A DNA stretch of 64,000 bases, from assembly GCF_001507545.1 (NCBI RefSeq), contig NZ_LQBP01000002.1, positions 124,001 to 188,000 of the forward strand, given 5' to 3'. Source of the DNA: Ruegeria profundi (lineage in GTDB: Bacteria; Pseudomonadota; Alphaproteobacteria; Rhodobacterales; Rhodobacteraceae). Below are positions 4,540 to 9,897 of the stretch, one piece after another (position 1 is the stretch's first letter; the number at the start of each line of letters is the position of its first letter). The notes under the pieces were generated by a model. That model did no database searches. It was not told where the DNA came from and saw only the letters and a list, made by a program, of their open reading frames with translations. The position numbers were made by a program, and so were the translations under genes.

Positions 4540-4899
4540 TCATTCGCTTGCGTTCTGCGACCGTCGAAATGCCCGCTTTAGCATGTCCAGTTCGGCGCGC
4601 AGCAACTCGACCTCGGCGCGTAGATCATCCGCTGCTGGTAAGCCCGCGATAACCGTGAAATCCCCCAGTTTTTCTGATGTTTCGGCGTTCTCGATCACAA
4701 AGCAATGCACCCCATCTGACAAGGCCGCCTGTGGTACAGGAATTTCCACGGACCATCCGCCATCTGAGGGCGTAACGCATACATCCGTGAGGGGTTTGCC
4801 CAGATACTGTACGCGAACCTTCGGCTCGGCTTCTGCCTCTATGTGCCCGAGCCAAAGGCCGTTTTCAAAGCGGATGGGTGTCAGTGTTGGTGACGTCAT
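4540..4899 (-). CDS. Conserved hypothetical protein with C-terminal coiled coil
   Basis: A 119-residue soluble protein that I cannot assign to a family. The first about 85 residues look beta-rich (WLGHIEAEAEPKVRVQYLG, VCVTPSDGGWSVEIPVP), and the last 35 form a heptad-patterned acidic/basic helix (DDLRAEVELLRAELDMLKRAF). No signal peptide or membrane segment. It lies 10 bases downstream of the following minus-strand gene (end 4910) and reads the same way, so the two may be co-transcribed. Reading-frame codon use matches its neighbours, which supports it being real. Confidence 0.65.
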   Translation of the reverse strand: MTSPTLTPIRFENGLWLGHIEAEAEPKVRVQYLGKPLTDVCVTPSDGGWSVEIPVPQAALSDGVHCFVIENAETSEKLGDFTVIAGLPAADDLRAEVELLRAELDMLKRAFRRSQNASE

Positions 4900-4909
4900 G
4901 CCAGAACTC

Positions 4910-5671
4910 TCACAAATCAGCGCGGTGGTGGCGGCAGAAGGTCAGATCACGTAACGAAACGCAGTTCATCTGTGGATTCTCAAAAATCAGGTCCAGCCAT
5001 ATCTTTTCAATCCGGGCCTCGTTCAGGGGTAAGTGAGCGAGGTCGAAATCGACCGAGTGGGACTGCGCAGATGGGTCCAGCGTGCGCAAAACCTGATCGG
5101 TGTTTGGGCCATGAAGAATGTTAAGGCGCGCAAACAGCTCAACCGGCAGTTCTGCGTCAATCAGAACGTCAACACGCATCAAGTGCTGTTTGGTCAGGTC
5201 TTTCGCGGCTTCAGTGGGCAGATCGACTGACAAGGACAGGAATGAACCGGCAAAGCCGAACACCTCAACCTGCAGCGCAAAGGCGGCTAAATCCTGATCT
5301 TGGCTGTTTCTGGTTTGCCGCATGCCGATCTCAGCCAGAGAGCAGTCGTGGAACAAAGTGACCTGCCGATCTATCTGCGCCCTGCGCGGGGCCGAGGCGA
5401 CACCCGGGCGTGCCAATGGTCCGCGCCACAAGTCGGGCCGCCAACACCAGTCCGCCCCCAAAGGCTTGGGGATTTGGCTAGAGCCTATCCTGGGGCGGGC
5501 AAGCCGTGTTTCGGCCTCATGTAGTAACATATCCAGATACAAGCGTAGCCTTCGCGCTTGGTCGCGTTGACGGCGTAGCAAAGGTTCGGGCGATTCTGAC
5601 GCGCCGCGCACGGCCTTGCGCCAACGCTCAACGACCTTGCGGTGGATATAGCGATCCAGAAGCCTGCCCAT
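4910..5671 (-). CDS. Hypothetical protein, resembles the DUF6478 family of Rhodobacterales
   Basis: A 253-residue protein of unknown function. The N-terminus is basic and helical (MGRLLDRYIHRKVVERWRKAV); the rest has a mixed alpha/beta look with the segment GADWCWRPDLWRGPL and a C-terminal part rich in acidic residues. I recall similar sequences only as a domain of unknown function in Rhodobacter relatives; this is recollection, not a search. I chose the ATG at 5671 because the family-like start MGRLLDRY begins there and a GATGGGGAC purine stretch precedes it; an upstream in-frame ATG at 5752 would add 27 residues. Confidence 0.65.
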   Translation of the reverse strand: MGRLLDRYIHRKVVERWRKAVRGASESPEPLLRRQRDQARRLRLYLDMLLHEAETRLARPRIGSSQIPKPLGADWCWRPDLWRGPLARPGVASAPRRAQIDRQVTLFHDCSLAEIGMRQTRNSQDQDLAAFALQVEVFGFAGSFLSLSVDLPTEAAKDLTKQHLMRVDVLIDAELPVELFARLNILHGPNTDQVLRTLDPSAQSHSVDFDLAHLPLNEARIEKIWLDLIFENPQMNCVSLRDLTFCRHHRADL

Positions 5672-5912
5672 GTCCCCATCACTTGGATTGTGCTTCTGTT
5701 TAGTCAAAAAACGCAGAGGGTTTAAAGACAAATAAGCGAAACCTCGGGTCAAAAATCGCTAATTCGTGAAGGCAAAGACGGATGGGCAAACCCGGCGAAA
5801 CCTGCTAGCTGCGCCATTCTTGCAATCACGCGGGTCAGTGCGTACCGTCTGCACCTGGTCGCAAGGGGTTATTCGACAAACGCATCCACTTAATTTGAGA
5901 CAAGGCCGGGGC

Positions 5913-8900
5913 ATGGAACCCACTCTTTTTGCTTTCATCTGGAAATACTCAAAAAAACAACAGCTTGTGTTGTTGCTGTTGACGGTTTTGTCATTTCCGT
6001 TCCTATACGCCTCGCTTGAATTGCCTAAGCAGATCATCAACGGGGCCATCGGTGCCCCCAGTGATACGGTGACAACTTTTGGCGTTACCGTGACACAGGT
6101 GCAGTATCTTATGATCCTGTGTTTTGCGTTTCTGGCCACAGTCATTGCCAGCGGGCTGATGAAGATGCGCATCAACACGATGAAGGGCATTTTGGCCGAA
6201 CGCATGCTGCGCCGGTTGCGGTTCACTATGATTGAACGCACCATGCGCTTTCCGAAATCTTACTTCGCCACAACCAGCCAAGGTGAGCTGGTGTCGATGA
6301 TCACTTCTGAGGCTGAGCCTATGGGCGGACTGATGGGCGATGCGATTGCGCAGCCTGTGTTCCAGTTTGGGCAGATGATGACCATCGTCACGTTCCTGTT
6401 TATGCAAAGCGTTTGGTTCGGCCTCGCCAGCATTGCGCTGATCCCGTTACAGGCCTGGCTGATCCCTAAACTGCAACGCCAGATCAACCTGCTGAACAAA
6501 GAGCGTATTCAAGAAGTCCGCAACCTCAGTTCCGAGATTGGTGAAAGCGCGGCGGGCATTAGCGATCTGCGCACCAATGGCGGTTGGCGCTACAGGCTGG
6601 CGCAGTTCAGTCACCGGTTGGGGCTTTTGTTCGATATCCGGTTCAAGATCTACAACAAAAAATTCTTTATGAAGTTTCTGAACAACCTGATTACGCAGAT
6701 GACACCGTTCCTGTTCTATTCGGTCGGTGGCTATCTGGCGATTACGGGTGAGGTGACGGTCGGTGCGCTTGTCGCGGCGCTTGGTGCCTATAAGGACCTG
6801 AGCGGCCCGTGGAAGGACTTGTTGACCTACTACAATCAGGTTCAGGATATGTCGCTGCGGTGGGAGGTGGTGACCGAACGCTTTGCGCCCTCGAACATGA
6901 TCCCGGAAGAGTTGTTTGAAGGTGAACCCGAGGTGATCCCGCATCTGAACGGTGAGATCGAGCTGCGCAACGTGACGGTGCGCGACGATGACGGGAAGAC
7001 CATACTTGAGGATATCGACTTAAAAATCCCCAAGGGCGCGCGGGTGGCGATCAAGTCTACCAATGCCGCGGAACGCAATGCGTTGGCACAGGTATTGACG
7101 CGTGAAGTTCTGCCAGCCCGGGGCGAGGTAATCATGGCTGGACACGACCTGAAAGACCTGCATCAGGCGGTAATCGCTGCACGGATCGGCTATGCCTATT
7201 CGCGGCCCTACCTTTTCAGCGGTACGTTGGGCAGCAATCTTATGATGCCGCTGCGCACCCACCCGCAGCAAGGAGCAGAGGCTGATCCAACCCGGTGGCA
7301 GATCGAAGCCGCCCGCGCGGGCAACTCGACTGATATGCTGAGCGAGGAGTGGATTGATCCGGGAATAGCTGGGCTTGAGGATATCGATGATATTCGCGCG
7401 TGGTGGTTCCAACTGGTCGAAGCGATGGGAATCGACGAATTCATGCTGCGGCGCACCTTGCGGACGCGCTTTGATCCTGATCTGCACCCCTCGCTGGCGG
7501 AAGATATCGTCAAGCTGCGCGACACCGTTGCCGAGCGACTAAAGGAACGCGGGTTGGACCGGCATGTTTACCGCTTTGACCCTGAGCGTTTTAATCCGGC
7601 TGTTCCGCTTGGCGGCAACCTACTGTTTGCAGCACCATCGCGGGATATTAACCCGGAATCTTTGGCCGATGATGCCCGTTTTAAAAAAATGTTCGGGATG
7701 TATGATCTGGCCAACGACGCAATGGCGATGGCCAACGCTGTCGTGGAAACGCTGGATCAAGCCTTTGGCCGCGACGGGACCGATCACCCCCTGTTTCTGC
7801 GTTTGGGCATGTCGAAAGAGATGTTTCATCGCCTTTTGGACATCAAGGATCGCCGCAAGTCGAAGGGTGAGGGTGGGATAAGCGAGGCAGAGCGCGCCTT
7901 ATTGCTGACGATTCCGTTCTTGCTGACGGCCGAACAAATCGGACCGGATTTCCCGGAAGAATATAAGGAAAAGATCCTCACCATCCGTAAAGAGCAGGCT
8001 GAAAGGCTGCGCGGGGCGCTTGAGGGCATGTTCGTGCCGTTGTCGCCAGATAGCTATATCCCAAGACTCACGGTTATGGAGAACGCGCTTTATGGCCGGG
8101 TTTCGCTGATGGCGGGCGCCCACGCAGACGAGATCGAGGATGTTGTTGCCGAGGCGATGAACGAGGCCGGTCTGCGCCGCAGGGCTGCGTCCACCATGTT
8201 CGATTTGCCAACCGGGCTGGGCGGAAACAACTTACCGACTGTGTTTCAGGAACGTGCGGCGTTTTCCCGTGCTGGTATCAAGCGCCCTGATATTCTGATC
8301 CTCGACAAGGCGTTGGCAAGCCACGATTCCGAAAGCCGCCTGCGCACGCGTCTCCGGTTGCGAGAATTGTTGCCCGATTCAATAATGATTTTCATGGAAG
8401 ATCATTTTGCACATCCAGAAGCTTATGATCTGTTTGTCGAAATCAAGGAAGGTCGCATTGATGGCGTTTCACGTACGCGGACCCAGCCGGAAGTCAGCAC
8501 GACGGCTGACCTGAGCAACAAACTGCGGATCATCTCATCGACCGAGTTGTTTTCCGGCATCGACGCACGCAACCAGCGGCTTCTGGCGTTCTCGGCACAA
8601 TGGTACGAAGTCGCGGAAGGCCAGATGATCTTTTCTCGTGGGCAGGCGCCAGATGCTGCCTACCTGTGTATAAAAGGGAATGCCACGCTGGAATGGTCGG
8701 ATGAAGACGGACGAAATCGCGTGATCTCCACCATTGAACCCGGTCGTCTGATTGGCGACCTTTCGATTATCACGGGCGAGTTGCGTCAACTGGACCTTAC
8801 TGCAACCACGGACTGTATCTTTCTGCGCATTGGCGCCGAAGAATTGCGCGCCGTGATCGAAAGCGATGTTTCGGTCGCGGTTCAATTGCTGCAAACTGTG

Positions 8901-9014
8901 GCCGGATATTTTTCAAAACTGTCCAACAGGATCAACACGGCCCAGAACCCTTCGGACCTTTTCCCAGAGGCACCGCAATCCATCCAAGGTGAGAGCACAG
9001 GCAATAATGCGTGA
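5913..9014 (+). CDS. ABC-like membrane protein with split, degenerate ATPase and cyclic-nucleotide-binding domain
   Basis: A 1033-residue protein. Residues about 5-310 form an ABC exporter transmembrane domain (several hydrophobic helices). An ATPase domain begins near 348, but the Walker A region reads GARVAIKSTNAAERNAL (near 374) rather than GxxGxGKST. An insertion of about 260 residues (about 450-712) then splits the domain. The signature LSGGQ is absent (LPTVFQERAAFSRA), and Walker B is ILILDKALASHD near 794, with Lys where the catalytic Glu should be. A cyclic-nucleotide-binding fold follows (about 870-993, GRLIGDLSIITGELRQLDLTA). It probably does not hydrolyse ATP like a normal exporter. 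The chosen ATG has an AGGCCGGGG stretch upstream; an earlier ATG at 5766 is in frame. The stop overlaps the CPBP gene by 8 bases. Confidence 0.85.
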   Translation: MEPTLFAFIWKYSKKQQLVLLLLTVLSFPFLYASLELPKQIINGAIGAPSDTVTTFGVTVTQVQYLMILCFAFLATVIASGLMKMRINTMKGILAERMLRRLRFTMIERTMRFPKSYFATTSQGELVSMITSEAEPMGGLMGDAIAQPVFQFGQMMTIVTFLFMQSVWFGLASIALIPLQAWLIPKLQRQINLLNKERIQEVRNLSSEIGESAAGISDLRTNGGWRYRLAQFSHRLGLLFDIRFKIYNKKFFMKFLNNLITQMTPFLFYSVGGYLAITGEVTVGALVAALGAYKDLSGPWKDLLTYYNQVQDMSLRWEVVTERFAPSNMIPEELFEGEPEVIPHLNGEIELRNVTVRDDDGKTILEDIDLKIPKGARVAIKSTNAAERNALAQVLTREVLPARGEVIMAGHDLKDLHQAVIAARIGYAYSRPYLFSGTLGSNLMMPLRTHPQQGAEADPTRWQIEAARAGNSTDMLSEEWIDPGIAGLEDIDDIRAWWFQLVEAMGIDEFMLRRTLRTRFDPDLHPSLAEDIVKLRDTVAERLKERGLDRHVYRFDPERFNPAVPLGGNLLFAAPSRDINPESLADDARFKKMFGMYDLANDAMAMANAVVETLDQAFGRDGTDHPLFLRLGMSKEMFHRLLDIKDRRKSKGEGGISEAERALLLTIPFLLTAEQIGPDFPEEYKEKILTIRKEQAERLRGALEGMFVPLSPDSYIPRLTVMENALYGRVSLMAGAHADEIEDVVAEAMNEAGLRRRAASTMFDLPTGLGGNNLPTVFQERAAFSRAGIKRPDILILDKALASHDSESRLRTRLRLRELLPDSIMIFMEDHFAHPEAYDLFVEIKEGRIDGVSRTRTQPEVSTTADLSNKLRIISSTELFSGIDARNQRLLAFSAQWYEVAEGQMIFSRGQAPDAAYLCIKGNATLEWSDEDGRNRVISTIEPGRLIGDLSIITGELRQLDLTATTDCIFLRIGAEELRAVIESDVSVAVQLLQTVAGYFSKLSNRINTAQNPSDLFPEAPQSIQGESTGNNA

Positions 9015-9897
9015 CACCAGCGCCTACTCCGCCCACGAACAGCTTGTTCGCGACGCCCGCGCGCGGCCCGAACTTTGGCGCCTTGCGGTGGGATTGGCCG
9101 TAGTCGTTGTACTGTATGTGGCGCTCAATTCTATCCTGTTTGCGGCCATCGGCAACATGTTGCAACCGAGTCAGGCCGAGACCCTGCTGCGCGGCTCCTC
9201 AAGCCTTGCAACCCTGGTTCTGCTGCTAAGTTTCGGGTTCCTGACGCTGGGCGTCGGATTGGCGGCGCGCCAAATGCAAAAAAGGTCATTGATCGGGATT
9301 TTAGGCCCGCGCGATCTGTGCCTTCAACAGTTCTGGCGCGTTCTCAGGGCCTTGGTGATTCTTGGGTTGGTGTTGATGGCCCTGCCACCCTATGGGATGG
9401 GTGAACCGCTGACGCAAAACCTGTCCTTTTCAAAATGGCTCTTGTTGCTACCGCTATCGCTGTTTGCGGTGCTGATCCAGACCAGTGCCGAAGAAATACT
9501 GTTTCGCGGCTATCTACAGCAATCCCTTGCGGCGCGGTTTAGGTCTCCGGTGATTTGGATAGGTGTCCCTTCGGTTTTGTTTGCCGCGGGGCATTATGCG
9601 CCAGGTGTGAGTGGTGAAAACGCGCTGCTGGTCGCGCTCTGGGCGTGTATTTTTGGCGTTCTGGCAGCAGACCTGACTGCAAGGGCAGGGACGCTCGGAC
9701 CCGCTATCGCGATGCATTTCCTGAATAATACCGTCGCGCTGGTGTTTATCTCGTTGCCCGAAACCCTCAGTGGCCTGGCCCTGTACCTGTTGCCCTACGA
9801 TATGTCCGGGACCGGCATGCTGCGCCAATGGCTGCTGGTGGATTTCGTTGTGATGATCGTAAGTTGGCTGACTGCGCGTCTCGCGCTCAGGCGTTGA
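9007..9897 (+). CDS. CPBP family intramembrane glutamic endopeptidase (CAAX protease-like)
   Basis: A 296-residue membrane protein with about 7-8 hydrophobic segments. The abortive-infection/CPBP protease motif EEILFRGYLQQ (EExxxR type), a second motif around FAAGHYAPG, and the late HFLNNTVAL (catalytic-site His/Asn) are all present, so the intramembrane protease site looks intact. CPBP proteins cleave membrane substrates or act in maturation and export of peptides; the substrate is unknown. The start at 9007 lies within the end of the ABC/cNMP gene (8-base overlap), so the two are probably translationally coupled and may work together in the membrane (inference). An in-frame upstream ATG (8866) inside the previous gene is unlikely. 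Confidence 0.88.
   Translation: MRDTSAYSAHEQLVRDARARPELWRLAVGLAVVVVLYVALNSILFAAIGNMLQPSQAETLLRGSSSLATLVLLLSFGFLTLGVGLAARQMQKRSLIGILGPRDLCLQQFWRVLRALVILGLVLMALPPYGMGEPLTQNLSFSKWLLLLPLSLFAVLIQTSAEEILFRGYLQQSLAARFRSPVIWIGVPSVLFAAGHYAPGVSGENALLVALWACIFGVLAADLTARAGTLGPAIAMHFLNNTVALVFISLPETLSGLALYLLPYDMSGTGMLRQWLLVDFVVMIVSWLTARLALRR

Follow-up and report, generated by a model that had tools for sequence, protein, structure and literature searches.

An alphaproteobacterial protein derived from ABC exporters that carries an eroded ATPase and a cyclic-nucleotide-binding domain, and the link of its family to a glycan gene cluster

We analysed a window of 64,000 nucleotides from Ruegeria profundi (RefSeq assembly GCF_001507545.1, contig NZ_LQBP01000002.1, positions 124,001 to 188,000 of the forward strand), and within it an exporter-like gene at window positions 5913-9014 (+). 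This frame is open throughout and encodes a protein of 1033 residues, hereafter the window protein, which joins the transmembrane domain (TMD) of an ATP-binding cassette (ABC) exporter to a nucleotide-binding domain (NBD) with eroded ATPase motifs and to a C-terminal cyclic nucleotide monophosphate (cNMP)-binding domain. Its family appears to be linked to a cluster of glycan genes, and we slightly favour a role that is independent of ATP. The features of the locus are given below, where group A denotes the group to which the window copy belongs.

5913..9014 (+): the group A copy, a protein derived from an ABC exporter, with an ATPase that looks inactive and a cNMP domain at the C-terminus (open reading frame, Pfam, AlphaFold2 model, PDB matches)
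5913..6902 (+): exporter-type TMD, residues 1-330, the best conserved part (Pfam; class-level relatives share 48% identity on average)
6945..7220 (+): first half of the NBD core, residues 345-436, with the eroded Walker A (residues 382-389, bases 7056-7079) and the Q-loop (Pfam, motif alignment, model)
7221..7556 (+): repeat 1, residues 437-548, a diverged ENxLFG-helix-long-helix unit (profile similarity to repeats 2 and 3; alignment A1)
7557..8018 (+): repeat 2, residues 549-702, putatively the second additional helical subdomain (E 2.3e-12 against repeat 3 in hhalign)
8019..8288 (+): repeat 3, in the usual place of the helical subdomain, with the degenerate signature LPTVFQE (residues 774-780, bases 8232-8252) (motif alignment, profiles, model)
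8289..8477 (+): remaining half of the NBD core, containing Walker B ILILDK (bases 8292-8309), the D-loop and an altered H-loop (motif alignment)
8610..8867 (+): cNMP-binding domain, residues 900-985 (Pfam, cassette alignment)
9007..9897 (+): CPBP/Rce1-like intramembrane protease gene, with an 8-base overlap with the exporter frame (open reading frame, Pfam, distribution)

The initial annotation, made from the sequence alone, had described an exporter-type membrane domain, about 260 extra residues in the ATPase and a trailing cNMP domain, and all three were borne out. Pfam matched ABC_membrane at residues 51-289 (E 4.5e-19, above the cut-off), a truncated ABC_tran at 365-454 (E 4.1e-06) and cNMP_binding (PF00027) at 900-985 (E 1.2e-14; 54.5 bits against a cut-off of 27.5), and the NBD holds an insert of about 270 extra residues at about residues 440-708. 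The structure prediction that had been proposed as a check was run on the full protein: the AlphaFold2 model, built from 80 aligned sequences, reached a mean predicted local distance difference test score (pLDDT) of 86.9 and a predicted template modelling score (pTM) of 0.76, with pLDDT below 50 at residues 162-174, 857-865 and 1020-1033. Pfam, this model and a PDB alignment agree on a six-helix exporter TMD followed by an NBD core.

Using the insert profile A1 as the search query, we found relatives in 131 of 385 genomes of the class, in 39 of 198 genomes of the window's GTDB family and in 25 of 299 genomes of a phylum sample, all 25 of them within the same class; in a first survey, 100 of 101 genomes had some exporter match. 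Orthologues with 71-100% identity were listed for all 54 genomes of the genus (own included) and for G058, and relatives at 32-36% identity that span the insert occurred in 11 class-level genomes. A further set, taken from one scan of named genomes, consists of the best 80 of 561 confirmed candidates; it is mainly of Rhodospirillales type (Azospirillum, Thalassospira, Tistrella, Sneathiella, Reyranella, Nisaea, Inquilinus), and L166, which meets a contig end, was omitted from its alignment. The R. profundi genome itself has two full-length copies. From these searches and the domain layout, it is well supported that the window protein is a member of an uncharacterised family of Alphaproteobacteria with its origin in type IV ABC exporters. 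No paper on this family or on the glycan cluster described below was found in the open-licence PMC literature. Five of the 80 loci (L166, L171, L192, L198 and L202) come from metagenome-assembled genomes labelled Gammaproteobacteria, a case of transfer, misbinning or mislabelling. In one other family of the class, members that have diverged strongly (L098-L101 and L107) have also lost the signature and the D-loop.

At the positions aligned with the ATPase motifs, the window protein has STNAAERN and not GxxGxGK[ST] at Walker A, Ser at the Q-loop, LPTVF for the LSGGQ signature and ILILDK at Walker B, with Lys replacing Glu, so that the Walker A loss, the absence of LSGGQ and the Walker B Lys read from the letters alone reappear in the alignment. 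The H-loop position holds Asp, and since the very next residue is His, a one-residue shift could retain it. A regular-expression control on eight generic exporter loci, taken from other genomes, detected GxxxxGK[ST], LSGGQ and DE in seven of them; L269, the remaining locus, is a 2.2-kb piece that yielded just a 300-residue fragment and no motif match. Walker A is degenerate in the second full-length copy of this genome as well (APSEEDRR). All five motifs occur together in none of the 79 aligned relatives, the most being three of five, in two relatives. Counted singly, the Walker A Lys is kept in 55/79, the full GxxxxGK[ST] in 7/79, the Q-loop Gln in 23/79, exact LSGGQ in 1/79, the Walker B DE in 4/79 and the H-loop His in 23/79, and Walker A ends in an acidic residue (Asp or Glu) in 52 and in Ser or Thr in 13 of the 79. 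The first sequence set, reduced from 130 to 118 by collapsing identical sequences (one is partial), has GxxxxGK[ST] in 1/118 and the Walker B DE in 3/118, and a looser regular expression run on the 80-row alignment including the window protein matched Walker A in 7 rows, the signature in 28, Walker B in 6 and all three in none. Together, these alignments make it a well-supported conclusion that erosion of the ATPase is, as judged from sequence, family-wide but uneven. We consider a working ATPase with unusual motifs extremely unlikely: the fold is intact, a His adjoins the H-loop position and some relatives keep the Lys, the whole Walker A or the DE, but the window copy has lost Walker A, Q-loop, signature and the Walker B Glu, and no relative has the full set.

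ATP hydrolysis might still enter if the window protein paired with an intact ABC half-transporter from elsewhere in the genome and so formed the degenerate half of an ATP-driven heterodimer of the TM287/288 type. The heterodimeric exporters TM287/288 and TmrAB have one degenerate site, and both are among the nearest folds. Such a heterodimer nevertheless appears improbable, given that both full-length copies of this genome are degenerate at Walker A and that no half-exporter with a TMD is among the other ABC genes, which were found close to the family gene at 11 of the 80 loci. These 11 matches, from a tblastn search with seven generic exporters, all lie over the ATPase part, and no second half-exporter was found near the gene at the 80 loci in this search, which covered the neighbourhood only; a motif search of the neighbours for such a partner gave just one ABC-like protein (L193).

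The insert and the adjoining signature region contain three stretches, in each of which a YNxNASxxENLLFG-like motif precedes helices and a long helix. Profile comparison of the class-level members gave E 2.3e-12 for repeats 2 and 3, 6.9e-08 for 1 and 3 and 2.3e-07 for 1 and 2, and with all members the values for the same pairs were 5.3e-14, 9.7e-06 and 5.9e-06 (the insert alignment omits L166, L158 and L172). The class-level hhalign scores (72, 47 and 47, in the same order) exceed the maxima of 17.1-19.5 obtained from 60 column shuffles per repeat pair, and other segments across residues 1-411 score 8.5-17.4; for the segment at residue 361, which shares residues with repeat 1, the score against that repeat was not used. 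The AlphaFold2 model has the same order of elements in the three repeats. Folded alone, the insert reached pLDDT 81.6 and pTM 0.58 and had no Foldseek match at E <= 0.001. The four top VIA matches were ABC exporter chains, each over one stretch of 67-74 residues with a weak Z of 3.2-3.8, which is below what a common arrangement can give; in TM288 the matched stretch (439-507) spans the ENxL motif to the signature helix in the motif alignment. Because Foldseek returned nothing and the VIA matches are weak, the repeat claim rests on the profile comparison, and we propose with moderate confidence that the insert consists of two extra copies of the NBD helical subdomain, which would make it a triplication.

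The cNMP domain is fused to the exporter at 14 of the 80 relative loci, encoded by a gene just downstream at 57 and not found at 9, two of which are at contig ends. At the positions of the phosphate-binding cassette that correspond to its Glu and Arg in CRP, Arg is present in 71/71 of these domains and Glu in 68/71 (14/14 fused, 54/57 separate). Group B domains keep both residues (15/15), and in group A the Arg is kept and Asp replaces Glu in 48/48 sequences. A supply of cNMP is plausible in this organism, because its genome has 22 matches to PF00211 (class III cyclase). At L047 5864-7770 (G019:C6) we observed a third, broken-up copy, with an NBD part and an NBD-plus-cNMP part in separate frames.

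The downstream gene matches PF02517 (59.7 bits), and its ATG at 9007-9009 precedes the exporter stop, TGA at 9012-9014, which confirms the 8-base overlap reported in the initial annotation. That annotation had gone on to propose a cNMP-controlled proteolysis unit, in which the pseudo-exporter would regulate the overlapping CPBP protease, and had suggested conservation of the gene pair as a check. CPBP does adjoin the exporter in 31/31 orthologue loci examined, of 55 orthologues listed, and an exporter copy lies within 2.5 kb of CPBP in 24 genomes of the GTDB family. However, CPBP is present in 135 of 198 genomes of that family against 39 for the exporter family, and a count from these two tables leaves 104 of the 135 CPBP-bearing genomes without the exporter family. 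Separation of the pair, which the annotation had named as a refuting outcome, proved frequent: of 30 CPBP loci fetched, the exporter gene was adjacent in 23 and absent in 6, and one was cut by a contig end. In all six loci that lack an adjacent exporter gene, five from genomes without the exporter family and one (L222) from a genome with only a distant group B copy, CPBP still precedes accD and folC. By tblastn, CPBP was not found in the fetched flanks of the 80 class relatives; it was likewise not found beside the in-genome paralogue, and the group-A-like copy L104 has no CPBP beside it. Among the loci examined, CPBP is an exporter neighbour only in the window's own GTDB family. Because it precedes accD-folC even without an exporter gene, we view CPBP as belonging to the accD locus, next to which the group A copy is situated, and as probably not the exporter's partner. 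The proteolysis unit was rejected on distribution and synteny, and we now regard it as very unlikely. Upstream of the exporter gene lie a divergent DUF6478 gene (window 4910-5752, -) and an adjoining small frame (4540-4899), both with matches in 31/31 orthologue loci.

Towards the class relatives, the window copy is more conserved in the TMD (identity 0.48) than in the NBD parts (0.21-0.29). Across 30 orthologues, the median ratio of nonsynonymous to synonymous substitution (dN/dS) lies between 0.025 and 0.073 in all domains, rough values taken from the 92-148 of 150 sampled pairs that were usable, with synonymous sites near saturation (median dS 1.3-2.0). Within the genus it is 0.027 for the TMD, 0.057-0.073 for the three repeats and 0.025 for the short NBD-C. 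A decaying pseudogene was rejected on the low ratio in all domains, though synonymous sites are near saturation.

The family also has TMD-only relatives. K84, R103, E133, Q180, R203, R243, K250 and K254 are among the residues identical in all six aligned TMD-only proteins (a comparison that omits L076) and shared by at least 181 of the 191 full-length ones, so that one acidic TMD residue, E133, is identical in all six; aligned with the MsbA chain 3b5x_A, K84, R243, K250 and K254 face non-basic residues. We ran a TMD profile (A5) on 27 chosen genomes. Thirteen of these are positive for GT1, one of the cluster glycosyltransferases (GTs) described below, and negative for the insert, and five of the thirteen have a family-type TMD at E <= 1e-35 (G056, G057, G758, G384 and, with an interrupted TMD, G824). 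Six genomes with neither GT1 nor the insert gave background only, at E 2.6e-11 or weaker. In G384, the gene for a TMD-only protein of 345 residues lies immediately beside GT1-GT2-GT3-GT4-deacetylase in divergent orientation, and the 12 kb read at this locus showed neither an NBD nor a cNMP gene. The R. profundi genome has a TMD-only relative of its own (G000:C1:604917-605816; L032 5909-6853), which, by eye, adjoins an elongation factor P-like gene.

The glycan cluster comprises four glycosyltransferases, a histidine phosphatase, a deacetylase-like protein and a Methyltransf_17 methyltransferase; 'deacetylase-like' is our own reading, as Pfam shows only DUF2334 below its cut-off. The recurrent order at the 80 loci is deacetylase-like, GT28-like, histidine phosphatase, GT4-type, EpsE/WcaL-like GT and GT28-like, with the cluster genes divergent from the exporter, the cNMP gene and Methyltransf_17. 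At least one cluster glycosyltransferase lies in the fetched flanks of 60 of the 80 relatives, and GT1 or GT2 is upstream in 53 of the 66 loci having 2.5 kb of upstream sequence. The GT1 profile matches 127 of 385 class genomes, namely 124 of the 131 with the exporter family and 3 of the 254 without it (Fisher p 7e-88), and within the GTDB family 39 of 39 exporter-positive genomes against 10 of 159 others, both comparisons being uncorrected for phylogeny. The R. profundi genome has the complete cluster at G000:C6, some 20 kb away from its second exporter copy. Within the GTDB family, GT1 is within 50 kb of 12 of the 45 copies that are not beside CPBP and of 0 of the 24 that are, counts that are lowered by contig breaks, and all 24 genomes whose copy adjoins CPBP also have a second exporter copy. 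Because none of the CPBP-side copies is within 50 kb, the co-occurrence of group A with the cluster is not explained by its own linkage. Taken together, synteny and co-occurrence make a link between the exporter family and the glycan cluster well supported.

Several further observations concern the cluster and its neighbours. PMC4340629 describes R. centenum mutants in two GT1-like genes and an influence of cGMP on encystment. Two Methyltransf_17 proteins (PF12692) flank the glycan region of this genome (L252 570-1220 and 17365-17841), and no paper on Methyltransf_17, PF12692, DUF6478 or COG4671 was found in the open-licence PMC literature. A Yej-type peptide importer operon, with genes named by eye, recurs beside the exporter or the glycan cluster (L137, L142, L147, L150, L161, L175, L192, L202 and L212; L252 1300-7169), with YejA-like proteins at 9 and YejF-like proteins at 13 of the 80 loci.

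Given that the TMD is kept, that ATPase chemistry is lost, that the glycosyltransferase cluster is followed and that the NBD can be lost entirely, the evidence points to an ATP-independent membrane component of the glycan pathway. From sequence and structural models we lean, by a little, towards an ATP-independent, cNMP-regulated transporter or scaffold for glycan. Such a protein would work without ATP hydrolysis. Its TMD, in which Lys and Arg residues specific to the family are invariant, would handle or anchor an anionic, probably lipid-linked glycan precursor from the cluster, and might act as an ATP-independent flippase, a secondary transporter or a synthase scaffold; an anionic substrate is suggested because the invariant TMD residues are basic. 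The pseudo-NBD and cNMP domain would act together as a regulatory lid on the cytoplasmic side, reading a small-molecule signal. Transport mode, substrate and ligand are what we infer for the window protein. The initial suggestion of a cNMP-linked regulator or scaffold in place of a pump fits the family-wide motif erosion, the higher conservation of the TMD than of the NBD and the TMD-only relatives. A more specific version is possible but tentative: this exporter lineage may have given up ATP in place, the TMD becoming an ATP-independent flippase or channel, probably for lipid-linked glycan, and the dead ATPase with its two extra helical subdomains becoming a lid gated by a cyclic-nucleotide-type ligand.

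The protein might instead be a regulatory or scaffolding subunit only, which transports nothing, anchors soluble glycosyltransferases at the membrane and has them tuned by its cNMP domain. The cluster glycosyltransferases match GT1-group and GT28-C profiles, enzymes that are usually soluble or peripheral; the ATPase is eroded, and the conserved extra helical repeats could dock partners. We nonetheless judge such a subunit somewhat unlikely, because the TMD-only member beside the cluster and the concentration of the strongest conservation in TMD residues favour a membrane-embedded job.

Several observations weigh against the ATP-independent transporter or scaffold that we favour. Nucleotide binding may persist in some relatives, because the Walker A Lys, GxxxxGK[ST] or DE is kept there. 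Within the genus NBD-C is as constrained as the TMD, and therefore the NBD still does something. In group A, the change from Glu to Asp in the cassette may weaken cNMP binding. Eight of the 13 GT1-positive, insert-negative genomes have no family-type TMD; two of the eight (G822 and G084) are only 76% and 86% complete, and the other six (G740, G768, G775, G804, G805 and G130) have weak GT1 matches, E 1e-57 to 1e-89. In seven class genomes the exporter family occurs but the glycosyltransferase does not, the window copy is far from the glycan cluster, and the co-occurrence tests carry no phylogenetic correction. If the favoured reading is correct, intermediates between an ATP-driven exporter and an ATP-independent membrane protein are visible inside one family, and a nucleotide-type signal is tied to an uncharacterised, widespread glycan pathway of Alphaproteobacteria. 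For the window protein, an automatic label of 'ABC transporter ATP-binding protein' would be misleading.

Compared with known systems, the window protein shares the fold of TMD and NBD core with type IV ABC exporters (TM287/288, PCAT1, TmrAB and MsbA). Foldseek with the whole protein placed ABC exporters first (E from 7e-17), but with query TM-scores of 0.22-0.37 in the rows shown. In VIA, TM287/288 reached Z 25.4 (root-mean-square deviation 5.0, 438 aligned residues) with many exporters tied; the 50 rows shown have Z 23.8-25.4, mostly over 400-447 residues. The best NCBIfam score, to MsbA_lipidA, was 138/602 bits, far below the cut-off. Unlike those exporters, the window protein lacks Walker A, Q-loop, LSGGQ and the Walker B Glu, has an altered H-loop, adds about 270 residues and a cNMP domain, and is better conserved in TMD than NBD towards class relatives. 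CPBP/Rce1-like intramembrane proteases are represented by the overlapping gene, which is not part of the conserved exporter module.

HetC, as described in PMC10986499, is a peptidase-containing ABC exporter that is likewise fused to a cNMP domain, which is needed for function and binds ppGpp in vitro. There the cNMP domain is N-terminal, a C39 peptidase is present and an ATPase residue is essential, whereas in the family described here the cNMP domain is C-terminal or a separate gene, the ATPase is eroded and no peptidase was matched (for C39, no Pfam match in the window protein up to E 1). According to PMC13316013, SbmA/BacA-type transporters (SLiPT) have an exporter-derived TMD that works without ATP. 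SbmA imports peptides, and SLiPT proteins, which are marked by a glutamate ladder and proton coupling, have no NBD, whereas the window protein keeps the NBD fold; an NBD is absent only from the TMD-only relatives, which resemble the SLiPT state. If the loss of ATP use in place is correct, the TMD-only members beside the glycan cluster would be an end state of that path, parallel to SbmA.

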